A DNA stretch of 64,000 bases, taken from assembly GCA_034439615.1 (NCBI GenBank), contig JAWXAT010000051.1, positions 1-64,000 of the forward strand. The letters run 5' to 3'. Both the position numbers and the translations under genes were made by a program. This document shows, piece by piece, positions 34,744 through 41,895 of the stretch. The notes under the pieces are model-generated. The model was not told the DNA's origin, searched no databases, and worked only from the letters and a program-made list of their open reading frames with translations. This stretch comes from Oligoflexia bacterium (GTDB lineage: Bacteria; Bdellovibrionota; Bdellovibrionia; JABDDW01). Position 1 is the stretch's first letter. Every line of letters begins with the position of its first letter.

Positions 34744-37700
34744 TTATAAAGTCAAACCTTTTGCGAGCCCCTGGAGCTTTGCCTTACAGCTATTTTTGCC
34801 CGATAAAGCTACAAGTGCTTTTTCTCTAGCAGAGTTAAGATCCATCATTTTTCCGTTTTGAAGTGGAATATTCTCAGGAAACACAACTTGGTTTACGAGA
34901 TCATCACGCCTTTTATCTGTGATTTCTTTAATGCGCGCAACACCCAAAGGTAATGGCACCCCAGCTTTAAATTCAGGATCAAGGCTACGTCTTGGGTTTA
35001 ACGAGAAGTTACGTAACTCGCTCATCTTTAGTTGAGCCATCGCGTACCAGCGATTACTTAGCTTCATATGGCTTTTGTAATCAATTTTAGAATCATACTC
35101 TTGATAGAATTTTTCAATACGTTCTTGATTTAGATCACCCTCTTTAGCAATGGTGAGTGCAAGTGGCGCAAGTACTGAGTCAAAATTATTTAACAATACC
35201 TGTCTTGCCAAGAGCTCTGATTCAACAAAAAGTTTTCGAATTTCAGTTTGATAGAGTTTGCGATCAGCGTCAGATAATGTTTGAAGAAATTCATTTACTG
35301 ATTTTCCATGAGGCAATGCAGTTTTACCCCAAGCTTCTGACAAACCTGAACGTAAAACAGTATCTACTGCTAACTCCATAGATTGTTCCATGTCATTACT
35401 TTTACCTGCGTCATGACCACCGTGTTTGTCAATCAGCATTTGAGCCACATAACCACCTGCATTCACAGCCATGTCACGAATAACGGCTTCAAGGCCTTGT
35501 TTGAAATATTCTTTCTTCTCGTGTTGAGCAAGCCCCAGATAAACAATCCATTGCCCCATGATCTCAGCAACACCTGGCATTATTGTTAGACGCTGAGATT
35601 GAAATTTTTTGCCAAAAAGAACACGCCTTACTAATTCATGTCCCGCTTCATGATAGGCCGTCATGATATGCACGGAATCTGTCATTTTCACATGCTCTTG
35701 CAATGTTCTCATTCCAAGAGAGAGAACATACACACCAGATGGTGTCTGAATTTTGTATTTAAATTTATTGTCTTTTGGAATGATAGGAAGTGCTGTAAGC
35801 ACAACTTTTGACCCTAATGGAACATTCTTACTCAACAAGAATACTCTTAATTCATCTCTGATTTTTTTAACAAAATGATCAATTGATGCGCCCTGATCTT
35901 TGATAACAAAACCTTCAGTTTCAATTAATTTAACCGTGGCTAAATAATCATTGGGGCTAGCAAAAAGCACTTCCCAACCACGTCGCCCCTCTGTAATTTT
36001 TAAATCTTCAAGGGCAAGTGATAATTTTAACTGTGAAAGTTCACGAATAGTTTTGTAATTTATTGGTGAGTAAAAAAACATATTCTCAAAACCAATTCGC
36101 GCAGCCATTGGCTCTGACAAACTTTTATATATCGTAGCTCTTCTAATAGATTCAGACTTAACTGATTCTTTATAGATAGTTTCACGCGCAGCTTGCTGTT
36201 GTTCTTGAGGTATATGTGTTGGAATTTGTGAATACCACTCTTGCCCGATGTTTGCAGTCATGATGAGGGTCACATTACCCATGGATCGTGGTTTGCCGTC
36301 AGCAAAAGTTCTTACCGTGGGTTCTCGAAGAATATCAAATAGAGCACTTAACACCCAAGGTGGTGCATTTCCGATTTCGTCTAAAGTCGCCATGAAATTA
36401 CCTTCAGTACGATCATAGATTTTCATGAACTCAGACTTAATTACTTTATCACCAACTTTTTGGCCTAATATTTTAACTTTTAAATCGTCTTTGTTAGTGA
36501 CAGAACCGAAGTCAAAAGCGTGCATAGCCTTTTCATTGCCATAAAGTTCAATAGCGAGAGATCTTGCAGTTTCAGTTTTTCCGGTTGAAGTTGGGCCAAA
36601 TAATCCAAAAACTTTTACTGCCTCTTTATTATCATTAACTGTATTTTTGTTATTACCGCGACGCTCTTGAGTTAAAACTACAGCTTTTGCGATCTCATCT
36701 ATTACAACTTCAGCACCAAAAACGCGTTTTTTTAGACGCTCACCTAAAGTAAGTATTTTTCGCAATTGTGCATCAGTTAATCGCACAGCTTCTCGCTCAT
36801 GCAATGTACCTTCAAGCACTAGCTCAGTCTTAATATTGTCTCGCTTAATTACGAGTGAGTAGGTGCGATCTGGATTTTGAGTGATATCTAATTCAATTGG
36901 ATATCTAGCTGTAGGCATTTCAATTTTACCTTCAGAAAATGCCTCAAAGAGTGGGTCTTCAACAAAAGATGTGATGCGATCAATAACAGGTCTTGCATTA
37001 TCTTCTGCGACATATTGATACTCTTGTAAAAATGCGACAAGTTTATTTGACCAAGAAAGAACAGGTGCTTTTGCACCACCTAAACGCACGTTTAAACTCT
37101 CTAATTTTTGTCTCGTGATAGTTTGTAAATCTTTAACTGAAAGTGGTCTAAACAAAAGCATTTGCCAATTTTGAAAGCGATTAACCAGATCTTGTGAAAT
37201 ACCAGGCGCATGCTCTGCTTTTCCACCAGTATTTTCAATGTGATTAGTTTCCATCAAACTATCGCGAAGGCGGCCGTAGTTCTTACTAACATTTGGCCAT
37301 TTAACCATCATCTCGTCATAATTAAGGGGGGCGCCATAGCGTCTGCCGTCGGGTTCTCGAGCGGTCAAAAGCTCTGAACCTTCATTGGTAGCGATGATGT
37401 ATAAAACAGGGACATACATTTTATCTACGCCACCTTTAACCGAATTGCTAACTCGCACAAAACCTTGATCAAGAGTTTCTTTTAAAAATGAATCTTTCAT
37501 AGATTTTGACCAACGCTCAAATCCAGAAATATAAATAACTGCACGCTCAGGTCGTTGACCTTCAAGTACTTTTTCTGAGCCCTGCCATTCAGGATTCTCG
37601 GCAATAGATTCTTCTGTTTTACCGTGAGGATTCTTCTCAACTTTTATTTGATAACGCCCTCCAGAATGAGCTGCTAAGAATCTCTGAAGAGAGGTAACAC

Positions 37701-39003
37701 CGTCTGAACCAATATGCCCCGTAGATGAGCCCGTTAATGAAGTCATATCTTCTTTTCCAGTGACTACGGGCAATCTAAACAAATGTGTTTTGTACGCCTT
37801 ATCGCGTTTATACATGGCATCGGTAATTGCTTCAGTGGCTGTGTCTTTTCCAGTACCAGGTAATCCCATAAATAAAAGAAGCTCTGGCAACTCTCGATTG
37901 AAACGAGTGATATAATTTCTAATTTCAATTTTTTTTGCAGCCGCTATAACTTCAGGCTGCCCGATAATTCGTTTATTTAAAATCGCAGTAAAAGCATCTA
38001 ACTCTTTTTTAAGAAGTTCTTTATTGTCTCTTGTATTTGGAACTGCATCTTGAATAACGTCCTGATCACCATTCTTATTAGCATCAGCATTCTTATCAGC
38101 TGACTTTAAGCGAGATCCATCAGATTCGTCCTTAAAAGGCTCTTCAGGATTAACGCCTAATTCTTTAGCTACATAGGACAAACGATTATCAAGATTAAGC
38201 TGTCCACGTACTTTTGACTGATAGTTTGGTGAGGCCTTTCGAATTCTTACCACCTCAGGTGTGAAAGGTAAGTCTTCAGTGAATTTTAGAATATCTAGTG
38301 TTGGCGCGTTTTGCCCGTGGCCATCTTGGTAAGTAATGTATGTACCTGTTTGTTCGTGATATCGTAAAAATGTGAGTTGACGATCATTACTAAGAGTAGC
38401 GATGTAATTTATTTTAAATCGACTCTTCTCACTACTCACGGCCATTTCAAATGTTTCAACACGCTGAGTACGATTGTTGATAGCAGCAAAATATATTTTT
38501 TCTTTAGTTTGGTGAGAGATTACCGTAACACTTTCGCTAGTACCTCTGGCAATTTGAACATTCCATATGCCTTCAGGTTTTACATTTCGACTAAAAGGAA
38601 CTGGATAAACTGAACCATCTAAACTCACAACATAATATTGATCATTGACTGCAACTTGGATGTACTCACCACTATTACGTACACCAAAAATAATATCATT
38701 ACCATTTACCTTCTGTAAGGCATTATGCTCAGGATCAGGGTAATTCACATTTACAGTTGCCGTATTTATTTGACCTTTAAAAATCGTATAAACTAATTTA
38801 GTACGCGGGTCCAAAAAACTTACTTCATCTAACTCAGCCCCTGCGTTGAAGTTATAAATAAGTTGTGCACCATTAATAAATTCGTAAACGACAGGTATAT
38901 TTCCGTTCACGTCGTTTGAGTTATCTCCTGCCTGCGCACTCTTTTGAACTGTAAGAAATATTGTAAGAACTAGAATGGCAATAATCAGTTTTTTAATGGT
39001 CAT
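34744..39003 (-). CDS. signal-peptide-bearing double AAA+ (Clp-like) ATPase fused to FtsH-type M41 zinc peptidase
   Basis: A 1419-residue chimera. Residues 1-25 form a Sec signal ('IIAILVLTIFLTV', cleavage site AQA-GD). Residues 30-290 are beta-rich with no named domain. AAA+ module 1 (about 335-640) has Walker A 'GLPGTGKD' (380-387), but its Walker B position reads 'VIYISGFERW' (489-498) without the D-E pair. AAA+ module 2 (about 745-1000) has Walker A 'GPTSTGKT' (803-810), Walker B 'MATLDEIGNA' (871-880) and sensor 'TANIG'. Residues about 1105-1300 match M41: H1118-E-A-G-H1122 in 'MTAYHEAGHELVRRVLFGKK', then 'AGKSNDMEQSMELAVDTVLR' with the third ligand D1204, and 'GLSEAWG'. A periplasmic ATP-dependent protease would be paradoxical; topology needs testing. 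It lies 147 bp after the second AAA+ gene on the same strand. Confidence 0.85.
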   Translation of the reverse strand: MTIKKLIIAILVLTIFLTVQKSAQAGDNSNDVNGNIPVVYEFINGAQLIYNFNAGAELDEVSFLDPRTKLVYTIFKGQINTATVNVNYPDPEHNALQKVNGNDIIFGVRNSGEYIQVAVNDQYYVVSLDGSVYPVPFSRNVKPEGIWNVQIARGTSESVTVISHQTKEKIYFAAINNRTQRVETFEMAVSSEKSRFKINYIATLSNDRQLTFLRYHEQTGTYITYQDGHGQNAPTLDILKFTEDLPFTPEVVRIRKASPNYQSKVRGQLNLDNRLSYVAKELGVNPEEPFKDESDGSRLKSADKNADANKNGDQDVIQDAVPNTRDNKELLKKELDAFTAILNKRIIGQPEVIAAAKKIEIRNYITRFNRELPELLLFMGLPGTGKDTATEAITDAMYKRDKAYKTHLFRLPVVTGKEDMTSLTGSSTGHIGSDGVTSLQRFLAAHSGGRYQIKVEKNPHGKTEESIAENPEWQGSEKVLEGQRPERAVIYISGFERWSKSMKDSFLKETLDQGFVRVSNSVKGGVDKMYVPVLYIIATNEGSELLTAREPDGRRYGAPLNYDEMMVKWPNVSKNYGRLRDSLMETNHIENTGGKAEHAPGISQDLVNRFQNWQMLLFRPLSVKDLQTITRQKLESLNVRLGGAKAPVLSWSNKLVAFLQEYQYVAEDNARPVIDRITSFVEDPLFEAFSEGKIEMPTARYPIELDITQNPDRTYSLVIKRDNIKTELVLEGTLHEREAVRLTDAQLRKILTLGERLKKRVFGAEVVIDEIAKAVVLTQERRGNNKNTVNDNKEAVKVFGLFGPTSTGKTETARSLAIELYGNEKAMHAFDFGSVTNKDDLKVKILGQKVGDKVIKSEFMKIYDRTEGNFMATLDEIGNAPPWVLSALFDILREPTVRTFADGKPRSMGNVTLIMTANIGQEWYSQIPTHIPQEQQQAARETIYKESVKSESIRRATIYKSLSEPMAARIGFENMFFYSPINYKTIRELSQLKLSLALEDLKITEGRRGWEVLFASPNDYLATVKLIETEGFVIKDQGASIDHFVKKIRDELRVFLLSKNVPLGSKVVLTALPIIPKDNKFKYKIQTPSGVYVLSLGMRTLQEHVKMTDSVHIMTAYHEAGHELVRRVLFGKKFQSQRLTIMPGVAEIMGQWIVYLGLAQHEKKEYFKQGLEAVIRDMAVNAGGYVAQMLIDKHGGHDAGKSNDMEQSMELAVDTVLRSGLSEAWGKTALPHGKSVNEFLQTLSDADRKLYQTEIRKLFVESELLARQVLLNNFDSVLAPLALTIAKEGDLNQERIEKFYQEYDSKIDYKSHMKLSNRWYAMAQLKMSELRNFSLNPRRSLDPEFKAGVPLPLGVARIKEITDKRRDDLVNQVVFPENIPLQNGKMMDLNSAREKALVALSGKNSCKAKLQGLAKGLTL

Positions 39004-39150
39004 TCTTTCTCCCGCACTTTTGCGTCCCAGTATGAATGCTTAGCCAAATACAAGACCTATGCCACTTAAAGCCCTTTAAATTTCCGCCACTTACGCAAAG
39101 TTTAGAAATTAACGATGACGAAGTTTTTGGCAAAAATGCCAATTACAAGC

Positions 39151-41895
39151 TTAAGGGCGGCTTGCAGCGTCAAGTAGAGTAATACAACTAGGCAGTGCAC
39201 CCCCCACATGAGGGAGAATTCTTTTAGCAATATCAAGTCTCACTTCGCGCTCAAAATTATCTATAAGAACTCTTAAAGATATCTGTTCAGAAAAATATTT
39301 CGCCGCAAACTTACTTAAAAGGCTTTTGGCATCTGCAACTAAAAATTTGATACCCTTAGCCTTTGCCTGAGATTCAATTAAAAGATTAAGTTTAAGCTCT
39401 AAAATATCACGCACTTCTTTAGTATTTTTGGGTGGAAAAAATGCATGTACTCCTGTCATTCGATCAACAAGAAATTCAGAAACACCTTCTTCAATTACAG
39501 CTTTTCGAATTTGCCCTTCAGTTGGTAATGCGATTTCTTTATCTACTAGCTCTTTTGTTTTTTTGTTTGCAGCCGAAAAGCCAATTGTACTTTGAGTTGA
39601 AGGTTGAGATTTTTTGATCCAGTCATTAATAAATTTTTGCCCAGCATTTGAAGCAAAAGTGATAGTCACACGACGAATATCAACTCTTACTGACACTTGA
39701 TTAACTCTACTTTGCGAACCATCTAGTGAAGCCTTTGTATAAAAATGATCGCTATCCATCATCGTGAGTAAAGTGTTTTGCACTGATGTGTGTGCTTTTT
39801 CAATTTCATCAAAAAATAAATGTGCGTAAGGATTTTTCAGCACTGCTTCATAAATTGTATTGAGTAAATCATCTGACGTTTTACCGGCACCATATTCGCT
39901 CATATTGATACGTACAAAACCATCAGTCATATGTGTTGCAAACCAAGTCTTTGCCACTCCCTTAGGCCCAACAAACATGCGCCTGCCACGAGGTTTTGAG
40001 GCATCTTGAGAACCTGTTAACGCCAATATAAGATCGTCAATAACAGCGTCTTTTACGTCAGTATAATTTTTAACATAATGATCTAGGTTTTCACGTGTAG
40101 TTTTAACTTTGTTGATTCTAAATTGAGGGTCAAATTCATCTGCATTGACTTGTTTTACCTTGGTAGCAATGGTTTCTATATATTTTTTAGTGATTTGATT
40201 AACTGGCACTGATTCTAGCTGTGCATATGCGTAAACGGCCTCTAAGTGCCTACTTGCACGCTCTAAAACTGTACCGATGGCATCGATTTCACCTGCGACA
40301 TAAATGACATGTTGATTTAATTCATTTGAAAGTGGTTGATACCCCACTTTTTCTGCCCACATATGAAGTGCTTCAAGCATTTTTTCTTGTGGAATTTCTT
40401 TTTTAATAATTTGTCTCATCCGGCGATTAAGACTTCTATCACCAGCAAGACTTTTCTTAAAGCCATCATGATTTGTTGTACCGATAAAACGAACTTTGCC
40501 GTTTGCTAATTCTGCACTTATTTGCGCAAAAAAGTCATTAGCCTGACCTGAGTGAGTGCCGCCACCTCTAAGTGAATGCATGTCATCAAAAATAAAAATA
40601 ACATCGTTTACTTTTGCATATGCAATAAGGGCTTTAACACGTAACTCAGTTACGCCCTTCCATTTTGAGCCCGCATCAAAATCAGTGGCATTGATCTGAA
40701 TAAATTTTGTGTCTTTTGAAATTTCAGGAAACTTACCATCCAAAACCATTTTTATAAAACTTCGAACTAGTTCAGTTTTGCCTGAACCAGGTTCTCCGAT
40801 TACAATTGCACTTCCTGCTTGCTTGTAGAGAAGCACACTGCGTAGGGCTTGAATTTCTTGGGGTTCATAGATATCAAATATTTTATTACTTGTACTGATT
40901 TCTTTTGATAAATTAATAAATGATTCATTGATTATGACCGAAGATTTGATCCATTTATTATCTTCCGTCTTAATATATGGGTCTTTTGGATCATCCGTTG
41001 GTTTTTCAGAACCCACATCCATTGATTCTTCTAGAGGTAATACATCCTGAGGTCTTTGTACAACTCCAGCATCTTTAAAAGTTTTTTGAATTTCACTTTT
41101 TCGTTCATCTAATTCACTTTTGGTATAACCGACTTGACTAGGGACATGCTTCTGTGGGTTCCACGCGTCTAAATTAAAAACTTCTGCTAAACCTTCAACA
41201 CTCAAACCTTCACTTGTGGTTACTGATTTTTTGCCGTCGGTAATTTTTAGTGTCCCAAGTGGTATAATAGTAGATTTTGGGCTTTTTATTGATTTGACTG
41301 TACCCAACTGAATACTCGCTCCATCATCTCTAACTAAAAAAACATCACTTTGGTTTTTACCTGCAACGATACTTATAATTTTATAACTAACATTACCTAC
41401 TTGTTTGTACTCAACATGTGTTTTCATTCCGACTTTATGCCCACCTACGATTTCATGGGGATATGTCGCTTGAGAAATCGGCAGTGTTACATGATTTCCA
41501 TTTTGGTTTACAAAATGAAGTTCATCTCCTACTTGAAAAAATACAAAAGTACCGCGTTGTTTAATAGCCAGTGCCTGGTAATTTGATATTTCTGAAACTT
41601 GATTTGATACAATCTTAGAGGCAATCCAACTATCAAAAAGCAGTTGTGATTCTACCTGCTCATTTACTGCGACTCGTAGAATTTTTCCATGCACGATGAG
41701 TGCACTTGGATCAAGAGGAACAGCGTTTGTTGGAGCAGATCTTGGCAAAAAATAAACACCATAGCCAGGTACACTTACCAGTTTATTCTCATTAGGAAAT
41801 TTATAAACAAATCTTCGAACAGGAGGCTCAAGTATTGCGAGTGCATTGATTGAAAATACTGTGATTAAGAGAATGAGTAATTTTTGAGCCTTCAT
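39151..41895 (-). CDS. signal-peptide-bearing ClpB/ClpA-like double AAA+ ATPase
   Basis: A 914-residue Hsp100-like protein with an N-terminal signal ('LLILLITVFSINALA', cleavage near residue 20). Residues 25-290 are beta-rich with a linker, of no known family. AAA+ module 1: Walker A 'GEPGSGKT' (367-374), Walker B 'VIFIFDDMHSL' (432-442), sensor 'IGTTNHDGF'. Module 2: Walker A 'GPKGVAKT' (643-650), Walker B 'AHLFFDEIEKAHTSVQNTLL' (691-710), sensor 'TFASNAGQ', arginine-finger region 'SEFLVDRMTGVHAFFPP', and a Clp small domain at the end. Both modules look catalytically complete, unlike module 1 of the neighbour. Hsp100 proteins unfold or remodel client proteins in the cytoplasm; a secreted version is not a family I know. 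It probably works with the M41 fusion encoded next to it. Confidence 0.85.
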   Translation of the reverse strand: MKAQKLLILLITVFSINALAILEPPVRRFVYKFPNENKLVSVPGYGVYFLPRSAPTNAVPLDPSALIVHGKILRVAVNEQVESQLLFDSWIASKIVSNQVSEISNYQALAIKQRGTFVFFQVGDELHFVNQNGNHVTLPISQATYPHEIVGGHKVGMKTHVEYKQVGNVSYKIISIVAGKNQSDVFLVRDDGASIQLGTVKSIKSPKSTIIPLGTLKITDGKKSVTTSEGLSVEGLAEVFNLDAWNPQKHVPSQVGYTKSELDERKSEIQKTFKDAGVVQRPQDVLPLEESMDVGSEKPTDDPKDPYIKTEDNKWIKSSVIINESFINLSKEISTSNKIFDIYEPQEIQALRSVLLYKQAGSAIVIGEPGSGKTELVRSFIKMVLDGKFPEISKDTKFIQINATDFDAGSKWKGVTELRVKALIAYAKVNDVIFIFDDMHSLRGGGTHSGQANDFFAQISAELANGKVRFIGTTNHDGFKKSLAGDRSLNRRMRQIIKKEIPQEKMLEALHMWAEKVGYQPLSNELNQHVIYVAGEIDAIGTVLERASRHLEAVYAYAQLESVPVNQITKKYIETIATKVKQVNADEFDPQFRINKVKTTRENLDHYVKNYTDVKDAVIDDLILALTGSQDASKPRGRRMFVGPKGVAKTWFATHMTDGFVRINMSEYGAGKTSDDLLNTIYEAVLKNPYAHLFFDEIEKAHTSVQNTLLTMMDSDHFYTKASLDGSQSRVNQVSVRVDIRRVTITFASNAGQKFINDWIKKSQPSTQSTIGFSAANKKTKELVDKEIALPTEGQIRKAVIEEGVSEFLVDRMTGVHAFFPPKNTKEVRDILELKLNLLIESQAKAKGIKFLVADAKSLLSKFAAKYFSEQISLRVLIDNFEREVRLDIAKRILPHVGGALPSCITLLDAASRP

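Follow-up and report, generated by a model that had tools for sequence, protein, structure and literature searches.

The window, that is, the whole stretch of 64,000 nucleotides that was analysed, lies on contig C51 of the draft genome (3.0 Mb, 70 contigs) of an Oligoflexia bacterium, and the subject here is two neighbouring genes in it, P0002 and P0001, that encode AAA+ proteins of the Hsp100/Clp type with predicted Sec signals and a lone cysteine close to the C-terminus. Both are on the minus strand in the order P0002 (914 amino acids), a gap of 147 bp and P0001 (1419 amino acids), both open reading frames (ORFs) are intact, and the flanking genes are ordinary metabolic genes and one lipoprotein-like gene. 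The original prediction, made from the sequence of the window, was of two adjacent Clp/Hsp100-like double-AAA+ genes with Sec-type signals, one of them with an FtsH-type peptidase, and all of this held up: the ORFs gave AAA matches in Pfam and NCBIfam, the peptidase is a Pfam M41 domain with conserved HEXXH and Asp ligand, and the signals are real as judged from their Shine-Dalgarno sites and their conservation across the families. It missed the C-terminal cysteine tag of P0001 and P0002, which is the main new result.

In P0001, Pfam placed AAA_2 at residues 799-940 (E value of 2e-8) and M41 at 1110-1297 (1e-11, above the family cut-off); a ClpB D2-small lid is at 621-695, and a weak match to Torsin, below the cut-off, spans the first AAA+ domain (D1) at 332-400. 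The AlphaFold model of residues 331-1419 had a mean pLDDT (predicted local distance difference test) of 82.5 and matched ClpC, ClpB and ClpA complexes in Foldseek, and a profile search of P0001 against solved structures gave the second ring of ClpB and the FtsH peptidase. P0002 has an AAA (7e-20) and an AAA_2 (3e-12) domain and its best NCBIfam match was ClpA (1e-43), but at 149 bits vs a cut-off of 993; likewise, P0001 scored 72 bits against the ClpB equivalog, the cut-off of which is 1232. Both proteins thus have the two Clp-type AAA+ domains with Walker motifs that mark Hsp100/Clp proteins, with D1 of P0001 and the second domain (D2) of P0002 partly degraded, and P0001 in addition has the M41 domain with HEXXH and Asp ligand that marks FtsH. 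The Walker B Glu is lost from D1 of P0001 (SGFERW vs NEFHNW). The D2 of P0001 has Walker A and B motifs and sensor and Arg positions that nearly all 20 aligned homologues keep, and D1204, the third zinc ligand, is kept across homologues together with HEXXH (1118-1122). Because the Walker motifs, HEXXH and the Asp ligand are kept across proteins that are only about 30% identical, ATP binding and proteolysis are under selection, and the conservation of the D2 motifs and the peptidase residues weakens the view that these proteins are dead relics.

P0002 has an IGF tripeptide at 771-773 (alignment A3), at what we take to be the position of the ClpP-docking loop of ClpA. The exported P0002 group formed one clade separate from ClpA and ClpB with a support of 100/100, on very long branches that call for caution, and the structural model of P0002 was poor (pLDDT of 54). 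The original prediction had also described the N-terminal regions as beta-rich, and this was weakly borne out by strands predicted at 106-227 of P0002, where the pLDDT is mostly below 50. No exported ClpP partner dedicated to P0002 was found in the genome of the window. In another genome with a P0002-type gene (G318, contig C107), two neighbouring ClpP-like proteins (L326 and L334) with lipoprotein signals gave weak CLP_protease matches, and this pair is a possible, putatively exported, peptidase partner.

Features of P0001 and P0002, in positions of the window
Feature	Position	Strand	Evidence
P0002, predicted exported ClpA-like double-AAA+ protein, 914 aa	39151..41895	-	Pfam/NCBIfam, tree
Predicted Sec-type signal peptide of P0002, residues 1-20, cleavage between ALA and I	41836..41895	-	sequence, ribosome-binding site GGGGAG upstream, signals of relatives
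P0002 D1 Walker A, GEPGSGKT, residues 367-374	40774..40797	-	motif alignment
P0002 D2 Walker A, variant GPKGVAKT, residues 643-650	39946..39969	-	alignment A3
P0002 C-terminal cysteine tag, Cys904 (only cysteine), CITLL	39172..39186	-	C904 and L907 invariant, alignment A3
P0001, predicted exported double-AAA+ protein with C-terminal M41 peptidase, 1419 aa	34744..39003	-	Pfam/NCBIfam, AlphaFold, Foldseek, profile matches
Predicted Sec-type signal peptide of P0001, residues 1-25, cleavage between AQA and G	38929..39003	-	sequence, ribosome-binding site GGGAGA upstream, signals of homologues
P0001 N-terminal domain, residues 26-330, not conserved among homologues	38014..38928	-	alignment A1
P0001 D1 Walker A, GLPGTGKDT, residues 380-388	37840..37866	-	motif alignment
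P0001 D2 Walker A, GPTSTGKTE, residues 803-811; Walker B LDE conserved	36571..36597	-	motif alignment
P0001 M41 peptidase domain, residues 1110-1297, HEAGH 1118-1122 and Asp1204	35113..35676	-	Pfam, alignment
P0001 C-terminal cysteine tag, Cys1406 (only cysteine), CKAKL	34774..34788	-	alignment column

The signal sequences, MTIKKLIIAILVLTIFLTVQKSAQA followed by G in P0001 and MKAQKLLILLITVFSINALA followed by I in P0002, each consist of a basic n-region, a hydrophobic core and an AxA-type site. Both start codons are preceded by a Shine-Dalgarno sequence, GGGAGA in P0001 and GGGGAG in P0002, and because of this the signals belong to the proteins; an artefact of the choice of start site is ruled out by these ribosome sites together with the signals in homologues. 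Signals were predicted by a home-made permissive rule, with a strict version for counts, and for this reason we place the weight on conservation among homologues and on the controls and not on single predictions. In full-length homologues of both families the strict rule found a signal in 28 of 33 and the remainder were recognised by eye, while it was found in 0 of 32 cytosolic ClpA/ClpB proteins of the class; P0001 itself fails the strict rule owing to a Lys in the c-region. The P0002 relatives L064, L065, L067, L287, L289 and L290 all have signals, and nearly all P0001 homologues have one of their own although the N-domain behind it is not conserved. The original prediction had named homologues without the signal as grounds for giving it up; the signal is instead a conserved family trait. 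By BLAST, the N-domain of P0001 shows no homology to that of P0002 (best E value of 0.27). Neither protein has a lipobox with Cys at +1 of the mature chain, the sole cysteine being C-terminal, and a hydropathy scan found no later transmembrane segment in either (highest 19-residue values of 1.31 and 1.27). The second membrane segment of an FtsH is therefore absent: there is a single N-terminal segment and not the two that in FtsH precede a cytoplasmic AAA+ domain.

A cysteine is present in the last 15 residues of all 32 M41-type proteins, two-ring and three-ring, and of all 5 P0002-type proteins, whereas none of the 32 cytosolic ClpA/ClpB controls has one in the last 20. The rest of the chain is depleted of cysteine, since the M41 set has 13 interior cysteines in 39,394 amino acids compared to the 255 that would be expected if they were as frequent as in cytosolic ClpA/ClpB, about 20-fold fewer. 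The residues at +3 and +4 after the tail cysteine are typically Leu, Phe or Tyr, giving the consensus C-x-x-[L/F/Y]-[L/F/Y], as in SCKSLF, TCARLFQ, SCKKLFN, RCEALFN, GTCKTLF and SCTELLKGAK. In P0001 the tail cysteine is an invariant column (13/13, alignment A1), and in P0002 C904 and L907 are among the 36 invariant columns of alignment A3 while the C-terminus around them is not conserved. A profile search brought in four more P0002-type genes, the fourth of which runs off its contig before its end, and in this out-of-sample set all three complete genes have both the signal and the tail (SCEDLLF, QCRKVFR and DCEKLL); both features are missing from the ClpA genes that the search also listed. A 281-residue protein encoded downstream of P0001 (33739-34584, minus strand) has a lipoprotein-like signal and likewise ends in cysteines (NACKLMRCR).

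The generality of the tag was examined in an unbiased sample of 740 kb from families of the class other than Bdellovibrio; as elsewhere in this study, genome-wide samples are sampled stretches of genomes. The class of the relatives is taken as Bdellovibrionia, and the genus g10 is inferred to be Bdellovibrio. The sample held 25 predicted exported proteins with exactly one cysteine in the mature chain, and in 22 of these it was near an end, that is, no more than about 25 residues from the mature start or 15 from the end, compared to 3.5 expected (P=2.8e-16). Thirteen of the 22 show C-x-x-hydrophobic-hydrophobic, either behind the signal (QTCSQLFNK, STCEALFR, QQCSQLFS) or at the end (KTCRSLF, VSCRSLF), and a few of the 22 are ordinary lipoprotein cysteines. 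The excess was absent from cytosolic proteins and from other phyla, and it was weak, and in part due to lipoproteins, in Bdellovibrio and in the genome of the window. The tag is general and extends beyond AAA+ proteins. In G024 (L069:7153-14628) an AAA+-M41 protein ends in ANRCADLLSGK and its downstream neighbour has SNRCADLLSGR after its signal, so that, going by the sequence, the same tag is at opposite ends of two adjacent proteins. Other tagged proteins in the related genomes include an isochorismatase-family enzyme that has both a signal peptide and a cysteine tag at its C-terminus (KTCQMLFAF; L178:7351-8121), and predicted exported proteins of about 430-470 amino acids whose one cysteine is part of the tag, at one end or the other (L179:8331-11076, L177:3509-4918, L245:6183-7568, L176:7096-8385 and L184:9532-10866), some with a weak alpha/beta-hydrolase match.

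About a dozen of 60 related genomes have homologues of P0001, at about 30% identity, and a 291-genome sample of the phylum gave more; a related-locus search gave matches in two Bdellovibrionota metagenome-assembled genomes, and most of its remaining matches were ordinary FtsH or Clp genes. The suggestion that the two genes are a co-conserved pair forming a joint system did not survive this comparison: in G029 and G036 the P0002-type gene is on a different contig from the P0001 orthologue, and in G022 and G039 it is present and the P0001 orthologue is not. The original prediction had named a lack of co-conservation, too, as grounds for giving it up, and this one applies. A fixed two-gene system is thus not supported, and P0001 and P0002 are two members of a wider class of putatively exported AAA+ proteins in Bdellovibrionia, each in a family of its own, and the two families occur separately. 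Such genes form clusters in several genomes. G007 has four giant predicted exported genes in a row (L260:3761-11685 and L053:72-11983), encoding an AAA protein of 835 amino acids, an AAA/DUF815-like protein of 1779 with its single Cys at 1770, a SpoVR+DUF444 protein of 1053 and an AAA+-M41 protein of 1276. In G024, G059 and G208 a three-ring AAA+-M41 gene adjoins one for a predicted exported protein of about 1050 amino acids that ends in an FGE-sulfatase-like domain (in G208 judged by the similar C-terminus), and in a distant relative, G071 (L262:4751-11734), a single ORF of 2327 codons has AAA+, HEXXH and an FGE-sulfatase-like C-terminus and is apparently a fusion that links the gene pair of G024 and G059. 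Two AAA+-M41 relatives lack D1 (L062:7577-10674 and L063:14138-16810); in G008 a separate, predicted exported ORF of 181 amino acids precedes the gene without D1, and in G042 a D1-like domain is on another contig than such a gene.

P0001 and P0002 resemble ClpA and ClpB in their two AAA+ rings, the ClpB D2-small lid, the IGF-like loop of P0002 and the best profile and fold matches; they differ from them in having a signal peptide, an unrelated N-domain, almost no cysteine and a cysteine tail, and, for P0002, in belonging to a separate, putatively exported clade. With FtsH and the mitochondrial Yme1, P0001 shares an M41 peptidase with HEXXH and Asp ligand on one chain with AAA+, but FtsH has membrane segments and one AAA domain, whereas P0001 has no second segment, AAA domains of the Clp type and a lone cysteine tail. 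The closest working analogues are Plasmodium HSP101, which is secreted, and SKD3 and Yme1 of the mitochondrial intermembrane space. HSP101, of the Plasmodium translocon of exported proteins (PTEX), is an Hsp100 unfoldase at the parasite vacuole that drives protein transport into the host (PMC7355975). It differs from the proteins described here in being eukaryotic, in being part of a translocon with EXP2, and in having neither a peptidase nor a cysteine tail. SKD3 (CLPB) is an Hsp100 disaggregase of the mitochondrial intermembrane space (PMC9934407, PMC7343390) and so acts in a space like the periplasm, but it has one AAA ring with ankyrin repeats, organelle targeting and no tail tag. The nearest described signal to the cysteine tag is MYXO-CTERM, an invariant C-terminal cysteine on Sec-exported proteins that is proposed to be lipidated before cleavage by myxosortase (PMC11980579). 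In MYXO-CTERM a membrane helix and an Arg-rich end come after the cysteine, whereas here only 4-14 residues follow it and the tag is also found just behind the signal peptide; we therefore rejected membership in that family, and the NCBIfam results for P0001 and P0002 held no CTERM match. A search of the open-access literature turned up no paper describing either exported AAA+ proteins or this tag in Bdellovibrionota.

A probable explanation, to which we assign a probability of about 0.6, is that P0001 and P0002 are Hsp100-type machines that leave the cytoplasm through Sec, that the cysteine tail is a tag by which they are sorted or attached, and that their nucleotide is supplied from outside. 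In its favour are the signals of nearly all full-length homologues, the lack of a second membrane segment, the scarcity of interior cysteines, the terminal cysteine in both families and in the members found later, the occurrence of the tag in other exported proteins and the conserved catalytic motifs. Both unfoldases would cross the inner membrane by the Sec route, and the lone cysteine near the terminus with its hydrophobic +3 and +4 residues would act as the tag, by lipidation, by a disulfide to a partner or by docking to a secretion or anchoring factor; the cysteine may be lipidated, disulfide-linked or simply recognised. The AAA+ ring of P0001 would unfold its substrates, proteins outside the inner membrane, and pass them to its own M41 metalloprotease, and P0002 would unfold or remodel proteins in the same space. 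AAA+ rings depend on ATP, which the periplasm does not receive, and we agree with the original prediction that export is paradoxical in this respect. By likeness to HSP101 and SKD3, the nucleotide would come from outside, for example from an invaded prey or host cell, and would be available in the periplasm of the predator, in the bdelloplast or in the prey itself, in the way that the mitochondrial intermembrane space receives ATP.

Several findings count against this explanation. The signal background is high, as 33-47% of the proteins of the class pass the strict rule (47% in the non-Bdellovibrio lineages sampled), and two ATPase sites are degraded, the Walker B of P0001 D1 and the Walker A of P0002 D2. 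No extracytoplasmic source of ATP was identified; the nucleotide transporter family PF03219 had no match in 60 genomes, where the control likewise had no match anywhere, so that this result carries no weight. The AAA+-M41 family is absent from g10, and it therefore cannot be the core of classical Bdellovibrio predation, which makes the link to predation indirect.

Another explanation, which we regard as unlikely, is that the proteins are effectors which the signal and the cysteine tag deliver into the cytoplasm of the prey or host, where ATP exists. This would account for the retained ATPase sites, and other tagged exported proteins do look like cytoplasmic enzymes, namely the isochorismatase (tail KTCQMLF) and the SpoVR+DUF444 fusion. 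However, no secretion apparatus or injection signal was identified, the AAA+-M41 family is missing from the well-studied genus of predators, and Sec export with a terminal cysteine fits a location in the envelope or at the surface equally well. It is improbable, too, that the N-terminal segment is an uncleaved anchor that leaves the AAA+ and M41 parts in the cytoplasm, a possibility raised by the original prediction that would remove the ATP paradox and has a precedent in membrane-anchored M41 proteases such as FtsH: the basic n-region predicts that the N-terminus is inside, so that a single segment puts the remainder outside, the second segment of FtsH was not found, many homologues have an AxA-type site just behind the h-region, and the cysteines are about 20-fold below those of cytosolic Clp, as for an exported protein. 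Finally, the view that the proteins are exported but use their AAA+ folds independently of ATP, as a chaperone, scaffold or peptidase carrier, agrees with a periplasm believed to lack ATP and with the degraded sites, but we give it little credence because canonical motifs are kept in P0001 D2 and P0002 D1 and, for P0001 D2, in nearly all of the aligned homologues.

Beyond these two proteins we propose tentatively, and at somewhat less than even odds, that Bdellovibrionia have an extracytoplasmic ATP-powered system of proteostasis or remodelling, made up of Sec-exported Clp-, FtsH- and SpoVR/vWA-like families, sorted by a new lone terminal C-x-x-[LF]-[LF] tag that works at either end and supplied with nucleotide from prey or host. 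If export is as predicted, conserved and catalytically preserved AAA+ machines outside the cytoplasm would imply either a supply of nucleotide there or delivery into another cell. In that case the terminal cysteine tag would be a new signal for protein sorting, and its consensus, which can be searched for, would open a direct way into the secretome of a little-studied group with predatory relatives.
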